Source: Gammaproteobacteria bacterium (GTDB lineage Bacteria > Pseudomonadota > Gammaproteobacteria > Thiohalomonadales > Thiohalomonadaceae). From it: 64,000 nucleotides of DNA. The notes under the pieces were generated by a model. The model had not been told where the DNA came from and ran no database searches. It saw only the letters and a program-made list of their open reading frames with translations. The stretch spans positions 1-64,000 of the forward strand of contig QKED01000092.1 in the NCBI GenBank assembly GCA_003252455.1, given 5' to 3'. How positions within the stretch are numbered: the first letter of the stretch is position 1; every line of letters starts with the position of its first letter. Of the stretch, positions 44,411 to 56,332 are shown one piece after another. The translations under genes were made by a program, and so were the position numbers.

Positions 44411-44428
44411 CTCACTCCCGCTCTATTG
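44411..44428 (+). other. Outer left att-like site
   Basis: CTCACTCCCGCTCTATTG resembles the guaA 3' end (TCATTCCCACTCGATGG) and is even closer to the inner site at 47704 (two differences over 17 bases). TGTAAACAAG continues at both. It marks the chromosome-island junction. Confidence 0.7.
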
Positions 44429-44485
44429 TAAACAAGACATTTTTATCTTTTATATTCAATGGCTTATTTTCCTGCTAATTGGTAA

Positions 44486-44504
44486 TACCATGAAAAATAC
44501 CATG
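44486..44504 (+). promoter_or_regulatory. Paired integrase arm-type sites, outer left end
   Basis: Two TACCATG motifs start 12 bases apart (44486 and 44498). The first begins 57 bases after the att core ends. The same motif recurs at 47778-47796 and near the right end (59593, 59662 and inverted at 59688), which fits tyrosine-recombinase arm binding. Confidence 0.55.
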
Positions 44505-44718
44505 CTCAGAAAAGGCTTAACAATATTTTGAAAAATTGCCTACTGAGCGCTGCCGCACAGCTCCATAGGCCGCTTTCCTGGCTTTGCTTCCAGATGTATG
44601 CTCTTCTGCTCCTGCAGCTAATGGATCACCGCAAACAGGTTACTCGCCTGGGGATTCCCTTTCGACCCGAGCATCCGTATGATACTCATGCTCGATTATT
44701 ATTATTATAGAAGCCCCC

Positions 44719-45534
44719 ATGAATAAATCGCTCATCATTTTCGGCATCGTCAACATAACCTCGGACAGTTTCTCCGATGGAGGCCGGTATCTGGCGCCAG
44801 ACGCAGCCATTGCGCAGGCGCGTAAGCTGATGGCCGAGGGGGCAGATGTGATCGACCTCGGTCCGGCATCCAGCAATCCCGACGCCGCGCCTGTTTCGTC
44901 CGACACAGAAATCGCGCGTATCGCGCCGGTGCTGGACGCGCTCAAGGCAGATGGCATTCCCGTCTCGCTCGACAGTTATCAACCCGCGACGCAAGCCTAT
45001 GCCTTGTCGCGTGGTGTGGCCTATCTCAATGATATTCGCGGTTTTCCAGACGCTGCGTTCTATCCGCAATTGGCGAAATCATCTGCCAAACTCGTCGTTA
45101 TGCATTCGGTGCAAGACGGGCAGGCAGATCGGCGCGAGGCACCCGCTGGCGACATCATGGATCACATTGCGGCGTTCTTTGACGCGCGCATCGCGGCGCT
45201 GACGGGTGCCGGTATCAAACGCAACCGCCTTGTCCTTGATCCCGGCATGGGGTTTTTTCTGGGGGCTGCTCCCGAAACCTCGCTCTCGGTGCTGGCGCGG
45301 TTCGATGAATTGCGGCTGCGCTTCGATTTGCCGGTGCTTCTGTCTGTTTCGCGCAAATCCTTTCTGCGCGCGCTCACAGGCCGTGGTCCGGGGGATGTCG
45401 GGGCCGCGACACTCGCTGCAGAGCTTGCCGCCGCCGCAGGTGGAGCTGACTTCATCCGCACACACGAGCCGCGCCCCTTGCGCGACGGGCTGGCGGTATT
45501 GGCGGCGCTGAAAGAAACCGCAAGAATTCGTTAA
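44719..45534 (+). CDS. sul2: Sulfonamide-resistant dihydropteroate synthase Sul2
   Basis: The 271-residue product begins MNKSLIIFGIVNITSDSFSD and ends AALKETARIR, matching Sul2 as I know it in length and sequence. Dihydropteroate synthase motifs are NITSDSFSDGG, IDLGPASSNPD, VSLDSYQP and LLSVSRKSF. It condenses pABA with the pterin but discriminates against sulfonamides. The 210 bases upstream (44505-44718) end in an ATT repeat and hold its promoter; no other gene there. Confidence 0.98.
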   Translation: MNKSLIIFGIVNITSDSFSDGGRYLAPDAAIAQARKLMAEGADVIDLGPASSNPDAAPVSSDTEIARIAPVLDALKADGIPVSLDSYQPATQAYALSRGVAYLNDIRGFPDAAFYPQLAKSSAKLVVMHSVQDGQADRREAPAGDIMDHIAAFFDARIAALTGAGIKRNRLVLDPGMGFFLGAAPETSLSVLARFDELRLRFDLPVLLSVSRKSFLRALTGRGPGDVGAATLAAELAAAAGGADFIRTHEPRPLRDGLAVLAALKETARIR

Positions 45535-45620
45535 CTGCACATTCGGGATATTTCTCTATATTCGCGGTTCAGCAGGCATGTCCCCTTTGAGGGCGACCCG
45601 ACGACAGGATAATCGACCTT

Positions 45621-45863
45621 ATGGTGCGCAAATATTTCGGCACAGACGGTATTCGTGGCAAAGCCAACGAAGGCGCGATGACGGCGGAAACCGCCTTGCG
45701 CGTCGGCATGGCGGCTGGCCGTGTCTTTCGTCGCGGTGACCACCGCCATCGTGTCGTGATCGGCAAGGATACGCGCCTGTCGGGCTATATGCTTGAACCC
45801 GCGCTCACAGCCGGTTTCACCTCGATGGGCATGGACGTATTCCTTTTTGGCCCGCTGCCGACA
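45621..45863 (+). pseudogene. glmM: Truncated phosphoglucosamine mutase (glmM 5' fragment)
   Basis: The first 81 codons of glmM ([20 protein letters not shown] ... [10 protein letters not shown]) are intact, then homology stops and the frame continues for 19 unrelated codons to 45923 in ISCR2-flanking DNA. The catalytic serine loop is missing, so it is inactive. sul2 followed by a broken glmM is the known context created by ISCR2; it shows that sul2 was taken from a folP-glmM locus. Confidence 0.92.
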
Positions 45864-47703
45864 ACGTATAGGAAGAATAAACGCCCTTTTCACCCAAGTC
45901 CAACAGCTTTGGACCGCAGTTGACTCTTTCGACACCCCTGCGATGCAACCCAATCCGGCTGACGGGGAGCCAGCAACGCTGAAAATTTACCCTCCTCTTT
46001 CCCACTAGCGGCTCCTTTTCCGACAACCAGCACGGCGGATCCCTGCCGCGGCGCTGTGAACGCAGCATTTTGATTGGTATCGTTGGCCTTCAGGCTCGTC
46101 AGTCAAACAGACCCAGGAGCAGCTCAGCCGGTGGCGCCCGGCTTTCGGGTAACGCCCTGGTCCCGCTGGTTTCGGCTTTGTGCTTCAGGTGATCAAGGAT
46201 CTGCTTGATCACTATAGGGTCTTCAATGCAGGCGATGACTTTCATGGCGCCGCCGCAGCCGCTGCAGGTCTCGATGTCGATATTGAAAACACGCTTGAGC
46301 CGTTGCGCCCATGTCATCGACGCTCGCCGTTGTGCTGGTGTTGCCGGTTCATCAGCCACCCTGACCTTGTTGCCCCTGCCCCGTTTTGCCGGCGTGACCA
46401 ACGCCCGGTGCCGACTGTTGGGTGCGAACACCCCGTGGAAGCGGGTTAGGTTGACTCTGGGCTTCGGTACCAGGGCGGCCAGCCTTGCAATGAAATCCAA
46501 TGGTTCGAAAATGACGTGCGTGGTGCCGTCCCGGTACGGCGTCTTGAGCTGGTAGCGCACGTTGCCGCCTCGTGTTAACGACAGCCGCTTCTCGGATACC
46601 GCCGGGCGGCTGATGTACCGGCACAGCCGTTCGAGCTTCTTGCGTTCATCGGCCCTGGCCGCCACGCCGGCGTGCAGGCTGGACCCGGCTACCTTGCCAA
46701 TCCCGTCACCGAACGGATCACCACTGGTCGGCAGAGTTTGCAAAGTGAACACCTTTCGCCCCGCCTGTGAACCGACAGCGATACGGTAAGTGATCGAGTG
46801 CCCCAGCAGGGGTGTCATCGGGTCGTCATCCACCGCATCCGAGGCCAGATAGCTGTTTTCGACATCCCGTTCCAGCAGGCCTTGCCGTTCCAGATAGCGA
46901 CCCACCCGGTGGGCGATGGTGTGCGTCAGCTGGGTGAGCTCTGGGCTGGTCGGCGCCTTGACCCAGCGGAAACGCGCTGAGCCGTGGGATTGCTCGACAT
47001 ACACACCGTCGAGAAACAGCATGTGGAAGTGAACATTCAGATTGAGCGCCGATCCAAAACGCTGGATCAGGGTGACCGCGCCCGTCTTGGCCACTTGGTG
47101 GGTATGGCCCGCTTTCTTGACCAGGTGCGTGGCAATGACGCGGTAAACGATGCCCAGCACCCACCCCATGATCTCGGGCCGGCTGGCAAACAGGAAACGC
47201 AGCTGAAACGGGAAGCTCAACACCCACTGACGCATGGGTTGTTCAGGCAGTACTTCATCAACCAGCAAGGCGGCACTTTCGGCCATCCGCCGCGCCCCAC
47301 AGCTCGGGCAGAAACCGCGACGCTTACAGCTGAAAGCGACCAGGTGCTCGGCGTGGCAAGACTCGCAGCGAACCCGTAGAAAGCCATGCTCCAGCCGCCC
47401 GCATTGGAGAAATTCTTCAAATTCCCGTTGCACATAGCCCGGCAATTCCTTTCCCTGCTCTGCCATAAGCGCAGCGAATGCCGGGTAATACTCGTCAACG
47501 ATCTGATAGAGAAGGGTTTGCTCGGGTCGGTGGCTCTGGTAACGACCAGTATCCCGATCCCGGCTGGCCGTCCTGGCCGCCACATGAGGCATGTTCCGCG
47601 TCCTTGCAATACTGTGTTTACATACAGTCTATCGCTTAGCGGAAAGTTCTTTTACCCTCAGCCGAAATGCCTGCCGTTGCTAGACATTGCCAGCCAGTGC
47701 CCG
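45864..47703 (-). mobile_element. ISCR2 (IS91-like rolling-circle element)
   Basis: The element is set between the point where glmM homology ends and the inner att-like site at 47704, about 1.84 kb, which fits ISCR2. It contains one transposase gene on the minus strand. IS91-like elements have no inverted repeats or target duplication. The exact termini are inferred from neighbouring features. Confidence 0.8.
46099..47592 (-). CDS. ISCR2 / IS91-family transposase
   Basis: A 497-residue Y2-type rolling-circle transposase. It has an N-terminal zinc-binding cluster (RCESCHAEHLVAFSCKRRGFCPSCGARR), a central HUH-type motif (NLNVHFHMLFLDGVY), a catalytic tyrosine region (LCRYISRPAVSEKRL) and a C-terminal zinc motif (ETCSGCGGAMKVIACIED). 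The sequence fits ISCR2/ISVsa3 as I recall it. It can mobilise DNA next to its origin end, here glmM fragment and sul2. Confidence 0.95.
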   Translation of the reverse strand: MPHVAARTASRDRDTGRYQSHRPEQTLLYQIVDEYYPAFAALMAEQGKELPGYVQREFEEFLQCGRLEHGFLRVRCESCHAEHLVAFSCKRRGFCPSCGARRMAESAALLVDEVLPEQPMRQWVLSFPFQLRFLFASRPEIMGWVLGIVYRVIATHLVKKAGHTHQVAKTGAVTLIQRFGSALNLNVHFHMLFLDGVYVEQSHGSARFRWVKAPTSPELTQLTHTIAHRVGRYLERQGLLERDVENSYLASDAVDDDPMTPLLGHSITYRIAVGSQAGRKVFTLQTLPTSGDPFGDGIGKVAGSSLHAGVAARADERKKLERLCRYISRPAVSEKRLSLTRGGNVRYQLKTPYRDGTTHVIFEPLDFIARLAALVPKPRVNLTRFHGVFAPNSRHRALVTPAKRGRGNKVRVADEPATPAQRRASMTWAQRLKRVFNIDIETCSGCGGAMKVIACIEDPIVIKQILDHLKHKAETSGTRALPESRAPPAELLLGLFD

Positions 47704-47720
47704 TCACTCCCACTCGATTG
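47704..47720 (+). other. Inner left att-like site
   Basis: TCACTCCCACTCGATTG matches the guaA 3' end (TCATTCCCACTCGATGG) at 15 of 17 positions and continues TGTAAACAAG-like as at 44411. It lies exactly where ISCR2 should end. Confidence 0.75.
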
Positions 47721-47777
47721 TAAACAAGCACACAAAACCCTTTAGTGACAACAATTTGCAAGAACTATCAGGCTCAG

Positions 47778-47796
47778 TGCCATGAAAAATACCATG
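47778..47796 (+). promoter_or_regulatory. Paired integrase arm-type sites, inner left end
   Basis: TGCCATG and TACCATG start 12 bases apart. The first begins 57 bases after the inner att core, exactly the geometry of the outer end (44428 to 44486), although the bases between differ. Confidence 0.55.
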
Positions 47797-47802
47797 ACCA
47801 GA

Positions 47803-48027
47803 TCATGAGGTTGAACACGGCTTGCGCCGGCAGCGTTCACGCTCCTGGTCGGCGATCTCGCCCGGCTGCAATGCTAGCTCAGCATCGGTCATGCGCTCCA
47901 GCACGTCGCGTAGGCGGATGGTGCAAGGAATGGGCGGCAGCTCGAACTCATAGCCGCCGGCGATCATTTCGGCCGCAATCTCCTCGGTGATGAAAAACGG
48001 CTCGTCGTCTTGGTTCGGCTTCTTCAT
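47803..48027 (-). CDS. Small acidic protein coupled to the resolvase
   Basis: The 74-residue product starts MKKPNQDDEPFFITEEIAAE and has no recognised domain. Its start overlaps the resolvase stop by 4 bases, so the two are probably co-translated. The C-terminus is basic and Cys-containing (RERCRRKPCSTS). Confidence 0.6.
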   Translation of the reverse strand: MKKPNQDDEPFFITEEIAAEMIAGGYEFELPPIPCTIRLRDVLERMTDAELALQPGEIADQERERCRRKPCSTS

Positions 48028-48761
48028 GCCCTTTCCTCCTGGCGCTCATCCTGGCCGACAGCGGCCAGGGCATCGGCTTCCGTCAATGCGTCCTCCACGA
48101 ACGCGCCGTGCTGCTTCGCTTCGGCCTGGCTGACCTCGGCCCATATCCGTTTCACCTGGGCCGCACTGTACCCGGCCAGCTCGGCGGTCTTGTTGATGCT
48201 GTAGCCGGACTTGCGCAGCGCGACAACTTGGGCGCGGCGCTTCGGATCAGCACGGCGGCCCTTGTACCGCCCGGCCTGGCGGGCCAACTCAATGCCTTGG
48301 CGCTGGCGTTCGCGCCTGTCCTCGTAGTCGTCGCGGGCCATCTGCAAGGCCAGGCGAAAAAGCATGATCTGCACGGCTTCCAGCACGATCTTGGCGACGC
48401 CCTGGGCCTCGGCCGCCAGGTCGGATAGATCGACCACGCCAGGGACGGCCAGGCGTGCGCCTTTGGCCTGTATCGAGGCCACCAGGCGCTCGGCCTCGGG
48501 CAAAGGTAGGCGGCTGATGCGGTCGATCTTCTCGGCAATGACCACCTCGCCGGGCTGTAGGTCGCCGATCATGCGCAGCAGCTCAGGCCGGTCGGCGCGT
48601 GCGCCGGATGCCTTCTCACGGTAGATGCCGGCGACGTAGTAGCCGGCGGCCTTCGCGGCCGTAGTGATCGCCTCTTGGCGTTCCAAGTCCTGCGCGTCGG
48701 TGCTGACGCGCAGATAGACCCGCGCCACCATCGGCGCGGCTACTGGCTTCGTCCTGCGCAT
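48024..48761 (-). CDS. Serine resolvase/invertase-family recombinase
   Basis: The 245-residue product has a resolvase N-terminal domain with the catalytic serine in ARVYLRVSTDAQDLERQEA, the arginine-containing IDRISRLPLPEAERL and a C-terminal helix-turn-helix (VVALRKSGYSINKTAELAGYSAAQVKRI), plus an extra C-terminal 35 residues. It would resolve multimers of the excised element. Its crossover site should be in the 147-base gap to arsR. Confidence 0.9.
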   Translation of the reverse strand: MRRTKPVAAPMVARVYLRVSTDAQDLERQEAITTAAKAAGYYVAGIYREKASGARADRPELLRMIGDLQPGEVVIAEKIDRISRLPLPEAERLVASIQAKGARLAVPGVVDLSDLAAEAQGVAKIVLEAVQIMLFRLALQMARDDYEDRRERQRQGIELARQAGRYKGRRADPKRRAQVVALRKSGYSINKTAELAGYSAAQVKRIWAEVSQAEAKQHGAFVEDALTEADALAAVGQDERQEERA

Positions 48762-48844
48762 ACTTGCGGGCTCCTTTGGGCATACTCAAATGCACCCATC
48801 TTAAACTGGCAGGCCAATTTATCACATATCGATCTAAATGCGCC

Positions 48845-48873
48845 TAGCTCATTTTTACAGCTTAAATGAGCTA
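48845..48873. promoter_or_regulatory. Inverted repeat between resolvase and arsR
   Basis: TAGCTCATTT and AAATGAGCTA are perfect 10-bp complements with a 9-base spacer. It lies 36 bases before arsR, next to a TTGAGC / CATATT promoter-like pair. It is a candidate ArsR operator, or part of the resolvase site. Confidence 0.5.
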
Positions 48874-48908
48874 TTGAGCACACTCCATATTTCGACTATT
48901 ATTGAAAC

Positions 48909-49241
48909 ATGGAAACGATAAATGCTGTAGCCGCCCTGGCGGCCATCGCTCAAGAATCGCGCCTCGCGGTGTTCCGGCTTCTCGTCCAGGCCGGCCCCGC
49001 CGGCATGGCCGCCGGAAAAATCAGCGAAGCGGCCGGCATCCCGCCGTCTTCGCTATCCTTCCACCTGAAAGAGCTGGCACACGCCGGCATGGTCACGTCG
49101 CGGCAAGAAGGCCGATTTGTGATCTACGAGGCGAACTTTTCGACGGCCACTAACCTGGTGGCCTTTCTCACGGAAAACTGCTGCGGCGGCCAGGTGTGCA
49201 ACCTGTCTTGCACCACGGAAGCCGGGAAGGTGTTGGCATGA
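48909..49241 (+). CDS. arsR: ArsR-family arsenite-responsive repressor
   Basis: The 110-residue winged-helix protein has [43 protein letters not shown]. The C-terminal [12 protein letters not shown] supplies a cysteine set for As(III), unlike the E. coli-type CVC in the DNA-binding helix. It represses the arsRHC-acr3 operon until arsenite binds. Overlaps arsH by 4 bases. Confidence 0.93.
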
Positions 49242-50005
49242 GACTTCGCCATCTTTCCGACCCCGATTCTTTGCCCGCTTTGGACAAATCCTTTGCCATC
49301 GAGCGCCCGGCGCTCGGGCTGGCACCCGACGCCCCGCCGGTGCGTATCCTGCTGCTGTATGGCTCGCTGCGCGCCCGCTCGTTCTCACGGCTGGCCGTCG
49401 AGGAAGCGGCCCGGCTGCTGCAATTCTTTGGCGCAGAAACACGCATCTTCGACCCGTCCGATTTGCCGTTGCCCGATCAAGTGCAAAGCGACGATCACCC
49501 GGCCGTCAAGGAGCTGCGCGCCCTGTCCGAGTGGTCAGAGGGACAAGTCTGGTGCAGCCCGGAACGCCACGGTCAGATTACCAGTGTCATGAAGGCGCAG
49601 ATTGACCATCTGCCGCTTGAAATGGCCGGCATCCGGCCGACCCAAGGCCGCACCCTGGCCGTGATGCAGGTATCCGGCGGCTCGCAGAGCTTCAACGCCG
49701 TGAACACCTTGCGTCTGCTCGGCCGCTGGATGCGAATGTTCACCATTCCGAACCAGTCGAGTATCGCCAAAGCGTTCCAAGAGTTCGACGCGGCGGGCCG
49801 CATGAAGCCCTCGCCGTACTACGACCGAATAGCCGATGTGATGGAAGAACTGGTGCGCTTCACGGCGCTGGTACGGCCGCACCGTGAAGCACTGACAGAC
49901 CGCTATTCCGAACGGAAAGCGGCCGGCCACGTCATCGACGAGGCCACCGATCTTTCATCCATCGCCATTGCTCCCCAGCCACTACCAGAAAGCGAAACAT
50001 CATGA
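49238..50005 (+). CDS. arsH: ArsH flavoprotein (organoarsenical oxidase)
   Basis: The 255-residue NADPH-dependent FMN reductase family member has [26 protein letters not shown], then [22 protein letters not shown] and [17 protein letters not shown]. ArsH oxidises trivalent methyl- and aromatic arsenicals. The ATG at 49238 overlaps the arsR stop, so it is preferred to the upstream GTG. Confidence 0.93.
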
Positions 50006-50508
50006 CCGAAAGAATCTATAACGTCCTCATCCTCTGCACCGGCAATTCGGCGCGCAGCATCATGGCCGAAGCTCTCATCAACACGATGGGGCAAGGGCGC
50101 TTCCGCGCCTACAGCGCCGGCAGTCACCCAACCGGCAAGGTCAATCCCTTCGCCGTCGAAAAGGTGGAGTCGGTGAATTACCCGACCGAGAATCTGCGCA
50201 GCAAGAGCTGGGACGAGTACGCCACGCCCGACGCACCGAAGATGGACTTCATCATCACCGTCTGCGACAACGCCGCCGGCGAAATGTGTCCGGTGTGGCC
50301 TGGTCAGCCGATCTCGGCGCATTGGGGATTTGAAGACCCGGCCGCCGTCGAAGGCACTGACGCCGAGAAGCGCCGGGCCTTCGAACAAACCTTCCGGCAC
50401 ATGATGAACCGCGTCCGCCTGTTCGTGAATCTGCCTCTCAAAATGCTTGACCAGACGGCCATCAAGCGCGAGCTGGCGAACATCGGCAAGACCGAGCAGG
50501 AAGCATGA
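50002..50508 (+). CDS. arsC: Arsenate reductase, LMW-phosphatase type
   Basis: The 168-residue product has the active-site loop [17 protein letters not shown] (CxGNSxRS) and the distal [13 protein letters not shown] with a second cysteine. It reduces arsenate to arsenite for export by Acr3. Translationally coupled on both sides. Confidence 0.93.
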
Positions 50509-51572
50509 GCGCCGGCGCACAGGCCATCGCCGCGAAGCCGCGCCAGGCCCCGATGAGCGGCTTCGAGCGTTACCTGACGCTGTGGGTGGCCCTGTGCATC
50601 GTCGCCGGTGTTGCGCTCGGCCAGGGCCTTCCTGACGTGTTCCAGGCCATAGGCCGCATGGAAGTGGCCCAGGTCAATTTGCCGGTGGGCCTGCTGATTT
50701 GGGTAATGATCGTCCCGATGCTGGTCAAGATCGACTTCGGGGCGCTGCACCAGGTCAAAGAGCATTGGCGCGGCATCGGCGTCACGCTGTTCGTGAATTG
50801 GGCCGTCAAGCCATTCTCGATGGCCCTGCTGGGGTGGCTGTTCATCCGACAAGTGTTCGCTCCGTTCCTGCCGGCCGATCAACTGGACAGCTACATCGCG
50901 GGCTTGATCTTGCTGGCCGCCGCGCCCTGCACGGCAATGGTGTTCGTGTGGAGCCGCCTTACCAACGGCGACCCGCTTTTCACGCTCTCGCAAGTGGCTC
51001 TGAACGACGCCATCATGATCGTGGCCTTCGCGCCCATCGTCGGCCTGCTGCTGGGCATGTCCTCGATCTCGGTGCCTTGGGACACGCTGCTGATTTCGGT
51101 CGTGCTCTACATCATCGTGCCGGTGATCCTGGCGCAGCTCTTGCGGCGGCATCTGCTCAAGCAAGGACAGGCCGCCTTTGAACGGGCCATGCAGAAGATC
51201 GGGCCGTGGTCGATGGCCGCGCTGCTGCTGACGTTGGTTCTACTGTTCGCCTTCCAGGGCGAGGCCATCATCCGGCAGCCGTTAGTGATCGCCATGCTAG
51301 CCGTGCCGATCTTGATTCAAGTGTTCTTCAATTCCGGGTTAGCCTACTGGCTGAACAAGCGGGCGGGGGAAAAGCACTCTGTCGCCTGTCCTTCGGCCCT
51401 GATCGGTGCCAGCAACTTCTTCGAGCTGGCCGTGGCGGCCGCCATCAGCTTGTTCGGTCTGCACTCCGGCGCTGCATTGGCAACCGTGGTCGGCGTCCTG
51501 GTCGAAGTGCCGGTGATGCTGCTGGTCGTGCGCGTGGTGAATCGCTCGAAGAGCTGGTACGAACGAGGTTGA
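50505..51572 (+). CDS. acr3: Arsenite efflux permease Acr3
   Basis: A 355-residue, 10-helix BASS-family protein. It has FERYLTLWVALCIVAGVALG, the conserved cysteine in AAAPCTAMVFVWSRL, NDAIMIVAFAP and SNFFELAVAAAISLFG. It is of the ACR3 type (often called arsB in annotations), not the ArsB type. It is the last gene of the operon. Confidence 0.93.
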   Translation: MSAGAQAIAAKPRQAPMSGFERYLTLWVALCIVAGVALGQGLPDVFQAIGRMEVAQVNLPVGLLIWVMIVPMLVKIDFGALHQVKEHWRGIGVTLFVNWAVKPFSMALLGWLFIRQVFAPFLPADQLDSYIAGLILLAAAPCTAMVFVWSRLTNGDPLFTLSQVALNDAIMIVAFAPIVGLLLGMSSISVPWDTLLISVVLYIIVPVILAQLLRRHLLKQGQAAFERAMQKIGPWSMAALLLTLVLLFAFQGEAIIRQPLVIAMLAVPILIQVFFNSGLAYWLNKRAGEKHSVACPSALIGASNFFELAVAAAISLFGLHSGAALATVVGVLVEVPVMLLVVRVVNRSKSWYERG

Positions 51573-51597
51573 ACATGAGTAGGAAAAAACTGAGGAA

Positions 51598-51690
51598 ATG
51601 ATTGCAGATTGCCGCGCCGGCCGCTTCCTGGCGCATTCGATCACTGACCTGGAACACCTAGTATCCATGCTTGCTGAGGTCGCCCGATGA
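51598..51690 (+). CDS. Possible 30-residue peptide coupled to the next gene
   Basis: The product is MIADCRAGRFLAHSITDLEH then LVSMLAEVAR. Its stop overlaps the next start (ATGA at 51687). It may be a real leader peptide or the remnant of a longer gene. No motif recognised. Confidence 0.35.
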   Translation: MIADCRAGRFLAHSITDLEHLVSMLAEVAR

Positions 51691-51890
51691 CAGACCCAAA
51701 GAACCTAGAGAACAGGCTGCATGAGAAGGCCGACCCGGCCCGCGCCGTTTCCACTGGTCGGGTGCGCTACACACTGGCCGAACTACTGGCCGACGCGGAA
51801 GCATCCGGGGCTTACCCGCTGCCGCCGGAGGAACGCGAATGGATGGATGCGCCGTCTGTGGGTCGGGAATGGCCAAACAGTGAAGATTGA
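51687..51890 (+). CDS. Small antitoxin-like acidic protein
   Basis: The 67-residue product has VRYTLAELLADAEASGAYPL, like the C-terminal tail of MazE/AbrB-type antitoxins (TLAELLA), but lacks the N-terminal DNA-binding part. No toxin follows. The function is unknown. Confidence 0.5.
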   Translation: MTDPKNLENRLHEKADPARAVSTGRVRYTLAELLADAEASGAYPLPPEEREWMDAPSVGREWPNSED

Positions 51891-51922
51891 AAAAGGCGGC
51901 CAGTTCGAGTGGCCGCCCTTTC
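51891..51922. terminator. Terminator between ars operon and trb operon
   Basis: An 8-bp stem, GGCGGCCA / TGGCCGCC, with AAAAA before it and CTTTCG after it. It lies between convergent operons and can act in both directions. Confidence 0.7.
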
Positions 51923-51926
51923 GTCA

Positions 51927-52151
51927 TTAGCTGCACGCTTGGCGCAAGGCGTTCATTGCTTCTTGAAAATCAGCCTGTGTCGCCCGGCCCGTTTCAGCTT
52001 GGTAGTACACCACCATAAAAGCATTAGCGACGGCTTCGGCCAATGGCCCAAGGCTCCGCGCTTCCGCTTGGTTGATGTACTCCAAAGAAGAAAGAATAGC
52101 CGCTGCTTGATGCACTGCTTGCCCTGGTTCGATAATATGTTGTGTTGTCAT
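51927..52151 (-). CDS. Hypothetical protein downstream of trbL
   Basis: A 74-residue helical soluble protein starting MTTQHIIEPGQAVHQAAAIL. Not recognised. Probably the last gene of the trb operon; the ATG is preceded by GGAGAGGTG. Confidence 0.6.
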   Translation of the reverse strand: MTTQHIIEPGQAVHQAAAILSSLEYINQAEARSLGPLAEAVANAFMVVYYQAETGRATQADFQEAMNALRQACS

Positions 52152-52214
52152 AATTCACCTCTCCAGTAGGTGTTGATTGAAAGTGCCGGGCTGGTTGTGG
52201 CCAGCCCGGTGCGC

Positions 52215-52463
52215 CTACAGGTACAGCCCCGCCGCCTCCGCGAATGCTGACCGCTCATTCCTGCCGCCATTAACCTCAATACTTATCGGCTTAGTTTCGC
52301 TCTCTCTCATAGGGTCTGGCCGTGATACAAAAGCGGCTGTTTCTGTCTCTGCATCGACCTCGGTCGATTGATCACCCAGCGGCGAAATAAATACCTGGCT
52401 GACTTCTTCCCTTGGCGCTTCATCCAGGGCCGCCAATGCGGCCATGTATGTTGATGTCGTCAT
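52215..52463 (-). CDS. Hypothetical protein downstream of trbL
   Basis: An 82-residue acidic protein starting MTTSTYMAALAALDEAPREE. No membrane segment or recognised domain. It is separated from trbL by only 4 bases, so it belongs to the operon. Confidence 0.6.
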   Translation of the reverse strand: MTTSTYMAALAALDEAPREEVSQVFISPLGDQSTEVDAETETAAFVSRPDPMRESETKPISIEVNGGRNERSAFAEAAGLYL

Positions 52464-52467
52464 CGTG

Positions 52468-53895
52468 CTAACTCCTGACTTCGTTACTATCTGGGCCAGA
52501 ATCGGCGCCCAAGCTATTGCCCTCGAACTGGCCAGATTGGCTTGCTTCTTTCGGCTCCATGCTTTCGCGTATCGAAGCAGCCAGTTTTCCGCCTGTGGTT
52601 TCGCTCACTCGCTCCTGGAATCCCTGCTTCACTTGAGAGCCGACACCCTTGGCTAACTCGGAGGCCGTGCCTGTGGCCAGCTTCGCGGCCTTGGCAAAGC
52701 CGCCACCGCTTGAGCTACTGCCGCTGTCACCAAAGCCAGCCGCTTGGGCGAATGGGCTACTGCCAGCAGTACCCGCTTCACCACCACCGTTTCCGCCACT
52801 GCTGACAACTGACCCCATGCTGGACATGTCACCGCCGGTTTCCATACTCGCTGATGCTTTCTGAAAAGCCGCTTGGAGTGCACTTGCACCTCCGGCTGCA
52901 CCGGCTGCGGCACCCATAACCGCTTTACCTGCCAGGGCAGCGCCGCCAGTTGCCATACTGGCCGCCGTCACCGCCGCCCCAACTGCCGCACCCGCACCGA
53001 AGTTTCCAATTCCACCGGCTGCGCCAATACCACCACCAGACACAAGACCAGAAATCATCGGCGGAACTTTGTTGACCAAGAAAAGCAAGATGACCGATAT
53101 AACCAACATCACGGCCAGTTCCTGGGATGCCATGTTCTCGCTGATTTGCGTGTAGTAGTGATTGATGAACTCTTTGCCAATCGCAACCAGAAGCACCATT
53201 GCCATAAGCTGTGCGGCCAGGCCCAGCACGGTCTTGTAGTAATTGATCGCCATGTCGGAAGTCCAACGACTTCCACCAAAGCCAAGGAAGAACACACCGG
53301 CATACAACAGAATCCAGGCTGATGCGAGCAACAGCAACAGGTTGACCGCAATCAACGCCAGGACAAACAAAACAGCCAGGGCCATTAGCTCCATGACCAG
53401 AGCAGTTGCCATCTGCCGCCATCCCAGCTCCGAGGTGGCCTGTACTGTGCGGTTGTATAACTCGAAACCAAGATCAAGGATGCTGGAGGGCCCAAGATTG
53501 CTATTGGAAAGTCCCCCCGCCTGCGCGCCCAGAGTTTGCAATGACTGAACAATCGTACCGGCGATATTCATGCCCTGGTTCGCATTCGTCAGCAACCACC
53601 AGAAAAAGCCGGTGAAGATCGTGAAGCGAACGAACTCCGCGAAGAACTCGCCAATGTCGGCCTTGCGCAAAGCCATCATGCCGAATGTCCAGACCATCGA
53701 AATCACAACCAGCGTCCAGAACAAACGCGATGCAGCGGACTCAATAGCTGGCCCCCATGTTGCGGCAGCATCATGAAAACGCTTGAGCACATCATTCATA
53801 ACACCGCTGCTACTTAGCTCCTGCGCCATTGCAGGTTCAGCCAGCACCATTGTGGCGACCATCATCAAGCCACCTAGAGCAATTTTCTTTCTCAT
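52468..53895 (-). CDS. trbL: P-type conjugative transfer protein TrbL
   Basis: The 475-residue product has a signal (MRKKIALGGLMMVATMVLAE PAMA cleavage) and 6-7 helices of a TrbL/VirB6 channel (AALFWTLVVISMVWTFG-like, LLLLLASAWILLYAGVFFLGFG), then a Gly/Ala/Ser-rich tail. The start at 53895 is chosen for GAGGTGG before the ATG. TrbL is a polytopic part of the IncP mating-pair apparatus. The rest of that apparatus is absent from this window's island. Confidence 0.88.
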   Translation of the reverse strand: MRKKIALGGLMMVATMVLAEPAMAQELSSSGVMNDVLKRFHDAAATWGPAIESAASRLFWTLVVISMVWTFGMMALRKADIGEFFAEFVRFTIFTGFFWWLLTNANQGMNIAGTIVQSLQTLGAQAGGLSNSNLGPSSILDLGFELYNRTVQATSELGWRQMATALVMELMALAVLFVLALIAVNLLLLLASAWILLYAGVFFLGFGGSRWTSDMAINYYKTVLGLAAQLMAMVLLVAIGKEFINHYYTQISENMASQELAVMLVISVILLFLVNKVPPMISGLVSGGGIGAAGGIGNFGAGAAVGAAVTAASMATGGAALAGKAVMGAAAGAAGGASALQAAFQKASASMETGGDMSSMGSVVSSGGNGGGEAGTAGSSPFAQAAGFGDSGSSSSGGGFAKAAKLATGTASELAKGVGSQVKQGFQERVSETTGGKLAASIRESMEPKEASQSGQFEGNSLGADSGPDSNEVRS

Positions 53896-53905
53896 GGCGA
53901 CCACC

Positions 53906-54142
53906 TCAATAATCATCTTTAGGGCTGGGCTTGAACTCCCACTGACGCATCTGCTTGGCCTTCTGGAATGCTCTGCATTCCTCGGTAAAGGCCTCTCGGT
54001 TCGCTTCGCTGCGCATTTCATTCAGTGCTGCCTGGAACGCATCGGGGGCACACGTCGCCGCATTTGGTTCGGGCATCCTTTCCTGTTCACATCCAGCCAA
54101 CAACAGCAACGTAGCCGCGGTAGTAAAAAAGATTTTTTTCAT
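53906..54142 (-). CDS. trbK: TrbK-like entry-exclusion lipoprotein
   Basis: The 78-residue lipoprotein has MKKIFFTTAATLLLLAGCEQ with the lipid cysteine at 18. TrbK of IncP plasmids is a small lipoprotein made in the recipient that blocks entry of the same plasmid; position between trbJ and trbL fits. The tail MRQWEFKPSPKDDY is strikingly like the tail of the neighbouring TrbJ (MRTWTFRPSPADNY). Confidence 0.75.
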   Translation of the reverse strand: MKKIFFTTAATLLLLAGCEQERMPEPNAATCAPDAFQAALNEMRSEANREAFTEECRAFQKAKQMRQWEFKPSPKDDY

Positions 54143-54154
54143 CTCACCGCCTCC

Positions 54155-54934
54155 CTAGTAGTTGTCTGCCGGACTCGGGCGAAACGTCCAGGTACGCATT
54201 TGCTCGGCCCTGGCATCACCTCGCGCCTCGGCATCGAGTTCTGCTGCAATCCGGGCTGCCTCCGCGTTGTGTTGGGCGGTCAACATGGTGCGAATCTGCA
54301 AGAGCTGATTGGCCTGCTGGCTGGCGAGCTGGTTGGCGTAGCCGATGGCCTGTAGCTGGCCAGTTGCACCCTGGGCCGCGCCTTGCAGCCGCTCCAGGGT
54401 ACGGGCGTCATCCTTCAAAGCCTTTTGCTGGTCGGCAACGGTCTGGAACAGGGCATCGTTGGCCTTCTTTTGCGACTCTGACGCCAGGCGGCGGTTCTCT
54501 TCCATCGCTGCCTTTTCGGCCGGCGTGCATCCGCCGCTGCCGTTGAAGCATGGCGAGCTGCGGTAATAGGCCACGTCCTGAAACTTGGCCAGGTAACGAT
54601 CCAGGCTGCCTAGCTGGTTCTCGTAATAGGCCAGCGTGTTTTGCGCGGCAATCAGCCGGTTGATCGTAGTCTGCGCCTGATCCCAGATATACGCGGCTGG
54701 GGCCATCGTGTTCTGGAGCTGATTTTCGTACTGCTGCAACTGGGTCTGGTACTGCTCAATCTGCTTGAGCGTCTGCGCCACCGACTCGATGGCCGTCATG
54801 ATGTTCTGGGCCAGGTTGCCGCCGTCGATGACGGGGATACCAGCTTGCACAGGGGCGGTGGTAGTGGTGATAAAGCCGGTTGCGAGTGCAACGGCTAGAG
54901 CGGTTTTTTTAGCCGCTAAAATTTTGGACTTCAT
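54155..54934 (-). CDS. trbJ: P-type conjugative transfer protein TrbJ
   Basis: The 259-residue periplasmic VirB5-like protein has a signal peptide (LAVALATGFITTTTAPVQA, cleaved before GIPVID). A long coiled-coil region follows (AQTLKQIEQYQTQLQQYENQLQ), then a helix with SPCFNGSGGC. TrbJ is thought to lie at the pilus tip and help in mating contact. Start at 54934 fits the signal. First gene of trbJ-trbK-trbL. Confidence 0.88.
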   Translation of the reverse strand: MKSKILAAKKTALAVALATGFITTTTAPVQAGIPVIDGGNLAQNIMTAIESVAQTLKQIEQYQTQLQQYENQLQNTMAPAAYIWDQAQTTINRLIAAQNTLAYYENQLGSLDRYLAKFQDVAYYRSSPCFNGSGGCTPAEKAAMEENRRLASESQKKANDALFQTVADQQKALKDDARTLERLQGAAQGATGQLQAIGYANQLASQQANQLLQIRTMLTAQHNAEAARIAAELDAEARGDARAEQMRTWTFRPSPADNY

Positions 54935-55074
54935 GGTCGTACTCCGTCGATGAAAAGAAGGCATTGCCTTGACCAAGCGTTGTGCTTGTTCTCGGCAACG
55001 TTTCATCGAAGAGCTACGCCACTAGCTGATCGGTATTGCCCTTGGCGCTGAGGCCCGGACTTACAAACGTAAAA

Positions 55075-55263
55075 CTACTCTGTTTTTTTATCGCTTTCGG
55101 ACAAGCCAACTTCCCGGCCAATCTCTTCAAGCTCTAGCGGCTGTACTGCCGCCGTCAGTATTTCGCGTATTTCCGCGTCGGTGCTCCTATCGTTGAGCGC
55201 TGCTCGAACTTTCAACGCACGGTGCACCTCGGCGGGTAAATTCCTGATAAGCACATTTGCCAT
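55075..55263 (-). CDS. FitA-like ribbon-helix-helix antitoxin, orphan
   Basis: The 62-residue product starts MANVLIRNLPAEVHRALKVR with the RHH pattern of FitA/VapB-like antitoxins. No PIN-domain toxin follows; the next gene is trbJ. It may act as an autoregulator or plasmid-stability remnant, or regulate the trb genes. Confidence 0.7.
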   Translation of the reverse strand: MANVLIRNLPAEVHRALKVRAALNDRSTDAEIREILTAAVQPLELEEIGREVGLSESDKKTE

Positions 55264-55329
55264 ATCAATACCCTTTTGGTGTACCCGACAACCATGCTAT
55301 CAAAGATATTAAAAATAGCAAGACCTATA

Positions 55330-55460
55330 CTCTTGCAACCGGCGGTAGCCGATCAGCCCCGCAGGGCAGGATTCCCGTTGAGTGCCCCCGGCGCGAATAA
55401 GGGACAGTGAAGATAGATAACCGGCTTGCCGGTTAGCTAACTTCACCCATCCTGCCCGCA
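55330..55460. other. IncP/RK2-like origin of transfer (oriT)
   Basis: The region has CCGGCGGTAGCCG, CAGGATTCCCGTTGAG, GCGAATAAGGGACAGTGAAG, an inverted repeat (ACCGGC-TT-GCCGGT) and TTCACCCATCCTGCCCG. These are the ordered landmarks of the RK2 oriT, where the nick falls in ATCCTG/CCCG. By analogy the nick would be near 55454/55455. No relaxase gene is in the island. Confidence 0.85.
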
Positions 55461-55546
55461 TTTCACCCACTATTGAAAATCTAGCGCATATCGAACGTAA
55501 AGCGTTTTATCGTCAAACAAACACCGATTCTTGGCAACATAACCGT

Positions 55547-55637
55547 AATCGTCACCAAATCGGCCTGCAATCGACATAGTCGCTTCAAAATCGCTGCTCA
55601 ATCGGCTTTAAATCGGAACCTAAAATGCCAACAATCG
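55547..55637 (+). repeat. Helically phased AATCG motif array
   Basis: AATCG occurs at 55547, 55558, 55569, 55589, 55600, 55611 and 55633, so most steps are 11 bases or twice that. Such phasing puts each motif on the same DNA face and suggests a binding array for a replication or transfer protein. Confidence 0.6.
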
Positions 55638-55695
55638 ACACAAACCATTCGCCCCGATGGGGCGAGTTGGACGCCAAAAAAGAAGGGCATAACCC

Positions 55696-55777
55696 GCCCC
55701 TCAAGTGTCAATGAACACAAGAAATTTGCCTCCCCTCCCGTCATACCACTAAGGCGACGTATTGATACTTGAGGGGC
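55696..55777. other. Large inverted repeat, possible single-strand initiation site
   Basis: GCCCCTCAAGTGTCAAT (55696-55712) and ATTGATACTTGAGGGGC (55761-55777) pair with one mismatch. IncQ origins use a pair of such palindromic ssi sites; the location, between oriT and the iterons, fits an oriV. Confidence 0.5.
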
Positions 55778-55852
55778 AACCTTTCCTGATGTTGACACCT
55801 TCACGCAGGTTACTGGTTATGGGCGTCCAACACACACGGCTCATTCCTGCTT

Positions 55853-55891
55853 GGTAATAATAAGAATAATAATCTTCTTATTATTCTTACC
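55853..55891. other. AT-rich segment, possible DNA-unwinding element
   Basis: A run of TAATAATAAGAATAATAATC and its complement is almost free of G/C in otherwise 50-60 % GC sequence. It lies between the ssi-like repeat and the iterons. 55892-56266 holds small palindromes (for example GATTATC-TTTA-GATAATC near 56186) and no gene. Confidence 0.5.
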
Positions 55892-56266
55892 GAACGAATG
55901 GGCACTGCTTAGCCATTTCACGTTTCGAGCCAAGGTTTCAGTACAGATAACTACAAGTGCACACAGCGGCCCTCCAGCACCGTTAGACGCAGATTCTGCT
56001 TCAGCTCATGGAATAAGGGACTCCGGGTTGTTTTCCCCTCTCACAAGGCGTTTCAGCGGCCACTGAAGCCGCCTTCTCTTCTTGGCGTTAAACCATCGGC
56101 CTATGGCCGATTGATAAAGCCCGCCAGGGCTTTATTGGCAAGGTCAGAACGCGCCCTCAAGGCGCGAGCTGCACCGCGCATGATGGATTATCTTTAGATA
56201 ATCTTGGATGGATTTCCCAAACTGCCCGCAAAGCAGCGCACCGTCTGGGTTTTCCAAATTGGGACG

Positions 56267-56332
56267 GGGAACGTTACGACGGCAGAAGGGGAGCGTTACG
56301 ACGGTAACAAGGGAACGTTACGACGGTAAACG
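56267..56332 (+). repeat. Three 22-bp iterons (oriV)
   Basis: GGGAACGTTACGACGG recurs three times, with CGTTACGACGG at 56272, 56294 and 56316, an exact 22-base period. The second copy contains the stop codon of repC, so the origin overlaps the gene end. RepC-type proteins bind iterons. Confidence 0.9.

Follow-up and report, generated by a model that had tools for sequence, protein, structure and literature searches.

The island GIsul2, with its sul2 and arsenic resistance, is found in three classes of proteobacteria with hardly any change, and the copy studied here raises the question of whose conjugation machinery moves it. Within our window, i.e. the 64,000-nucleotide stretch of a gammaproteobacterial contig that was analysed, GIsul2 (Tn6591) occupies positions 44416–59882 as an integrative mobilizable element (IME) at the 3′ end of guaA. 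It is the published element at the published site, up to 100% identical over 15.47 kb to the copies in R485 and other plasmids and differing from them in nothing. The island, its oriT and the idea of an IncP helper are thus already known, the last reportedly from Harmer et al. 2017. In one paper GIsul2 is an IME bearing TrbJ/K/L for which an IncP helper is proposed, and the same paper relays an IncP-1-alpha helper suggested from TrbJ/K/L similarity (PMC5704250); the oriT of GIsul2 has been listed (PMC8239412); and its excision by Int and AlpA, with AlpA promoting excision, has been shown, transfer not, again with an IncP helper proposed (PMC9376610). What we add is an epsilon-type assignment, a leading-side array, a gradient of relatives and a specific helper prediction.

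Gene content of GIsul2 and the relaxase search

The ~15.5 kb at guaA show the layout int-alpA-repA-repC-trbJKL-ars-resolvase-CR2-sul2. The cargo gene sul2 (44719–45534, + strand) was assigned from its open reading frame and the R485 annotation of identical sequence; the genes that follow all lie on the − strand. These comprise the CR2/ISVsa3 IS91-like transposase (46099–47592; PF04986, E 5.6e-36), VirB6-like trbL (52468–53895; PF04610, E 1e-40), the entry-exclusion lipoprotein gene trbK (53906–54142; R485 annotation, no Pfam family above cut-off), trbJ for a VirB5-like mating-pair protein (54155–54934; R485 annotation, with PF07996 just below cut-off at E 5.6e-5) and, between trbJ and oriT, a FitA-like ribbon-helix-helix 'stabilization protein' (55075–55263; PF22513, E 1.5e-16). 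Beyond oriT follow the IncQ-type replication gene repC (56296–57177; PF06504, E 7.8e-145), a repA-like helicase gene (57164–57991; PF13481, E 1e-30), the excision factor gene alpA (57996–58217; PF05930, E 1.3e-13) and the tyrosine integrase gene int (58365–59567, or 58365–59672 from an upstream GTG start; PF00589, E 3.5e-24, and R485 annotation). The integration target guaA (59872–61449, open reading frame) contains the core TCCCACTC at 59876–59883, from which the left attachment core TCCCGCTC at 44416–44423 differs by one base. Three iteron-like 22-bp direct repeats (CGTTACGACGG core) at 56263–56330 overlap the 3′ end of repC and are a candidate replication origin of the excised circle, while two inverted repeats between oriT and repC, at 55696–55777 (17-nt arms, 94% complementary) and 55861–55889 (12-nt arms, 100%), may be part of an IncQ-like origin.

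A Pfam scan found no relaxase among ten GIsul2 proteins, and among the Tra/Trb queries only trbJ and trbL were found in GIsul2 copies, trbK being known from annotation. A relaxase or TrbI-type type IV secretion system (T4SS) elsewhere in the host was likewise rejected, as the genome (4.58 Mb, 118 contigs) gave no PF03432 relaxase and no TrbI match. With an integrase, an oriT, no detected relaxase and no complete T4SS, GIsul2 has the make-up of a relaxase-less IME and, lacking a relaxase of its own, must borrow the machinery of a conjugative plasmid. Our literature search found no report of GIsul2 itself being mobilised by an IncP plasmid. For its derivative ICERspD18B, however, transfer from Rheinheimera sp. 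D18 into E. coli has been reported, at 2.8e-7 and with no helper named (PMC7775301). ICERspD18B has the same oriT as GIsul2, yet neither TrbI nor a PF03432 relaxase was found in the sequence that holds it, which counts against the reading favoured below; the three relaxase-encoding gene copies counted in ICERspD18B by PMC7775301 were not recovered by our Pfam search of this sequence (E 0.001).

We identified 80 loci encoding TrbJ relatives, 31 of them GIsul2 copies, nearly all above 99.8% identity (99.0% in one, L005). That copies so alike occur in alpha-, beta- and gammaproteobacteria is best explained by helper-dependent conjugation, in agreement with the preliminary description, which had linked the oriT to spread across distant hosts. 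Other relatives keep the rep-oriT-trbJ order, with the position of oriT before trbJ conserved, and form a gradient from loci with traJ and traI, through those with traJ only, to those with neither, as in GIsul2. Open traJ frames without detected traI occur in ten loci (L035, L037, L059, L061, L063, L064, L072, L073, L077 and L079) and neither gene was detected in L036, L041 and L042, as judged by tblastn with IncP-1-epsilon queries in flanks of up to 10 kb, a search that a very divergent relaxase could escape. The simplest reading of the gradient is that relaxosome genes were lost step by step while oriT and trbJKL stayed. In L036 and L041, nic and the adjoining inverted repeat are 100% conserved, while trbL has drifted to 83–84% nucleotide identity. 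L042 has a changed nic core, ATCTTGCCC.

The oriT block and its place among the IncP-1 subgroups

Read on the − strand, the 124-bp block at 55339–55462 presents nic, then a 19-bp inverted repeat, then the traJ-side part of an IncP oriT. The nic core ATCCTG^CCCG (55449–55458, + strand) shows little or no variation across the aligned set of related oriTs; the predicted cut lies between 55454 and 55455, a position that we take from known IncP biology, and the transferred strand is predicted to lead towards repC and int. The inverted repeat, a predicted TraJ-binding site, spans 55407–55446 (arms 55407–55425 and 55428–55446, 89% complementary) and is separated from the cut by eight bases (55447–55454). 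As single-stranded DNA it folds with z = −3.85, beating 200 of 200 shuffles. By itself, the 10-mer ATCCTGCCCG was not significant, with 10 sites in the window at up to one mismatch against 7.8 expected, whereas the whole block matched 385 plasmid records (E ~1e-47; 95.2% to IncP-1-epsilon) and gave E 5e-54 in a pairwise comparison with pHH3408, values that rule out a chance origin. The host genome holds one copy of the block, which was absent from all 38 other genomes sampled among the host's relatives. Judged by these matches, 55339–55462 is a genuine IncP-1 oriT inside GIsul2, and the preliminary claim that a chromosomal sul2 island holds an IncP-type oriT stands. The nick region quoted there, TTCACCCATCCTGCCCG, corresponds to 55442–55458 on the + strand and falls inside the 55330–55460 interval then proposed. 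The nic core has a further near-copy, ATCCTGCCCT, at 55363–55372 (− strand), which is kept in the traJ-side part of nearly all aligned IncP-type oriTs.

The same description had called the oriT RK2-like and suggested alignment with RK2 and R751. Here IncP-1-alpha was represented by pBS228, a stand-in for RK2 (BN000925) and pTB11 (NC_006352). The nearest oriTs were those of pKJK5 and pHH3408, at 95.2% over the block; pKJK5 is listed as IncP-1-epsilon (PMC3590792). R751-type (beta) oriTs followed at 91.2% and pBS228 at 82.6%. Across the 40-bp TraJ-site hairpin, GIsul2 differs at 0 positions from epsilon, at 1 from R751 and at 11 from pBS228. The RK2 type is thus ruled out as nearest relative, and the alpha-class repeat suited to RK2-type TraJ is not what GIsul2 carries; its repeat belongs to the epsilon/beta class. 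In a mosaic comparison of GIsul2, L035 and L037, the part of the GIsul2 oriT beyond the repeat resembles L037, the repeat itself matching epsilon.

In RP4, TraJ binds the inverted repeat and TraK the curved region on the leading side (PMC7314908). Among oriT/traJ pairs from related islands, the class of the repeat tracked the class of TraJ in 33 of 34, although these pairs are phylogenetically non-independent, so that the counts overstate the evidence: the TTAGCTAACC repeat arm, which is that of GIsul2, went with an LRVPV-type TraJ in 5/5 pairs and the TAG(G/T)C(C/A)CACC arm with an (I/L)KVYC-type TraJ in 28/28, the remaining pair, L081, fitting neither class exactly. The sampled plasmids sorted likewise, with epsilon, R751, pAKD4, L099 and L104 in the first pairing group, the alpha-type plasmids, L100, L101, L103, L105 and L107 in the second, and L108 showing a third form of both repeat and TraJ. 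This rule is a correlation among related loci; it predicts that GIsul2 needs an LRVPV-type TraJ. Together with the 11 of 40 differences from alpha, it argues against efficient recognition of this oriT by RK2 TraJ.

The phased AATCG array on the leading side

A plain alignment with epsilon breaks off at 55462, yet conserved leading-side DNA extends to ~55640. It includes seven phased AATCG repeats (55547–55637, + strand; CGATT on the − strand), predicted from motif conservation and likeness to epsilon and gamma plasmids to be a TraK-binding array, with a spacing of mostly 11 bp, i.e. in helical phase. Across GIsul2, L035, L036, L037 and L041, all 35 motif bases are invariant, whereas the spacers vary at 29 of 56 positions (p = 1.5e-8); traK went undetected in all five. 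As the motif stays invariant in these traK-less islands while the spacers vary, the functional oriT probably runs to ~55640. The interval 55330–55460 therefore contains nic but is too tight on its right edge, and the 130-bp clone that had been proposed for a mobilisation test would leave out the repeats of the leading side. With RK2, transfer from an oriT of 112 bp is reported to fall five orders of magnitude short of that from a 760-bp fragment (PMC12696120).

A phased CGATT array is also present in pHH3408, pKJK5, pAKD16 and the gamma plasmid QKH54, lying between traK and nic in the epsilon and gamma plasmids, a comparison in which the motif was picked from GIsul2 and then sought elsewhere, a few similar pHH3408 motifs having already been seen in the alignment. 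The array was not found in R751 or pBS228; CGCT(A/G) takes the place of CGATT in R751, pAKD4 and several islands. The TraK proteins of the four array-bearing plasmids are of one type, 59–100% identical to epsilon, as against ~36–47% for those of plasmids without the array. A rule set beforehand, equating SLSERI-type TraK with a CGATT array, was borne out by L099, L101 and L106 but not by L100, L102, L104 and L105. Among six held-out SLSERI-type plasmids, two (L099 and L101) have the array and a clear array was not found in the other four, so that in its strict form the rule was only partly upheld. L103 and L107 carry CGTT-type arrays instead of CGATT. Overall, we hold it fairly likely that the repeats at 55547–55637 are TraK-binding sites. 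In two Acinetobacter plasmids (L101 and L109), an oriT accompanied by traJ and traK lies next to copies of ISVsa3; the stretch read contains no full Tra region, and the leading side shows the CGATT register of GIsul2.

Helper identity and comparison with known systems

Since the array sits between oriT and an IncQ-type repC, its repeats could instead be replication iterons for RepC. This is improbable: IncP-1-epsilon and -gamma plasmids, which replicate with TrfA and not IncQ RepC, have the same phased motif in the interval from traK to nic, and GIsul2 has the separate iteron-like repeats at 56263–56330. A near-invariant nic core with its flanks across IncP, along with the relayed proposal of IncP-1-alpha helpers (PMC5704250), would suit an oriT that all IncP plasmids, RK2/RP4 included, serve equally well. 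We consider this unlikely, the TraJ site being 11 of 40 bases off alpha and repeat class following TraJ class.

The oriT might also be an unused fossil in an island that spreads solely as an insert of conjugative plasmids. GIsul2 does occur in the IncX plasmid R485, in Acinetobacter plasmids and in an IncC plasmid (PMC5704250 for IncC), and its relaxase, traJ and traK are all gone, but the intact nic and repeat of L036 and L041 despite their diverged trbL, the invariant array motif and the chromosomal guaA copies in many species make such a fossil quite doubtful. Less probable still is an island-encoded atypical relaxase, for instance Int, that acts on this oriT or a different one and borrows no more than the T4SS. 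SGI1 sets a precedent with its tyrosine-recombinase-like MpsA (PMC6414798), and the reported D18 transfer came with no IncP relaxase detected in the sequence searched; against this, the match of the GIsul2 oriT is to MOBP-type IncP plasmids, which use TraI as their relaxase, and the ten proteins examined include no extra MpsA-type recombinase.

The reading we favour, and consider likely, is that 55339–55462 serves as the oriT of a relaxase-less GIsul2 that is mobilised by an IncP-1 helper, epsilon fitting best. Sequence, relatives, the lack of a detected relaxase and covariation are direct observations here, from which we infer TraJ and TraK binding, nicking and transfer. Int and AlpA, whose excision activity others have shown, would release GIsul2 as a circle, and an incoming conjugative IncP-1 plasmid would supply TraJ, TraK and TraI. 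With TraJ on the repeat at 55407–55446 and TraK on the phased repeats at 55547–55637, TraI would nick at 55454/55455, and one strand would exit through TraG and the T4SS of the plasmid, starting with the repC side and ending with sul2. RepA and RepC may maintain the circle, Int would re-insert it into the recipient's guaA, and TrbJ, TrbK and TrbL, following a published proposal, probably modify the helper's mating pore and exclusion. Judged by their fit to the binding sites, pKJK5-like IncP-1-epsilon plasmids would be the best helpers, beta plasmids (R751) less suitable and alpha plasmids (RK2/RP4) poor ones. We give roughly even chances to the further idea that the oriT is a two-part mimic of the IncP-1-epsilon relaxosome sites, kept by selection after the loss of traK, traJ and traI in what would be an endpoint of a stepwise series among guaA islands, and that the pairing of repeat and TraJ is a readable code for the IncP subgroup able to mobilise a given relaxase-less island.

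Naming the subgroup turns the proposed IncP helper into a testable prediction, namely IncP-1-epsilon, a group reported from soil, manure and wastewater, and not the usual laboratory RP4. If true, a negative outcome with RP4 could not be taken at face value, and repeat class could predict the helpers of any relaxase-less IncP-type island.

The protein-binding sites point to an IncP-1-epsilon-like helper rather than RK2. With pKJK5 and pHH3408, GIsul2 shares 95% identity over 124 bp, an identical TraJ-site hairpin and a phased CGATT array on the leading side, but these plasmids encode traK, traJ, traI and a T4SS, whereas GIsul2 is without traK, traJ and traI. RK2/RP4-type alpha oriTs (as pBS228) share the nic core, the overall layout and 83% identity over 121 bp, and differ in their inverted-repeat class, their TraJ class and the lack of a CGATT array. 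The IncP islands of Brucella, Burkholderia glumae and Acidovorax resemble GIsul2 in guaA target, rep genes, oriT and trbJ-K-L (PMC5704250), yet carry their own traJ and traI, and some of them traK, which GIsul2 does not. SGI1, other oriT-mimicry islands and the staphylococcal pWBG749-type mimics resemble GIsul2 in being elements whose mobilisation goes through an oriT that fits the relaxosome of a helper (PMC8136818 for staphylococci); they rely on other relaxase families and helpers, and SGI1 encodes an atypical relaxase (PMC6414798).
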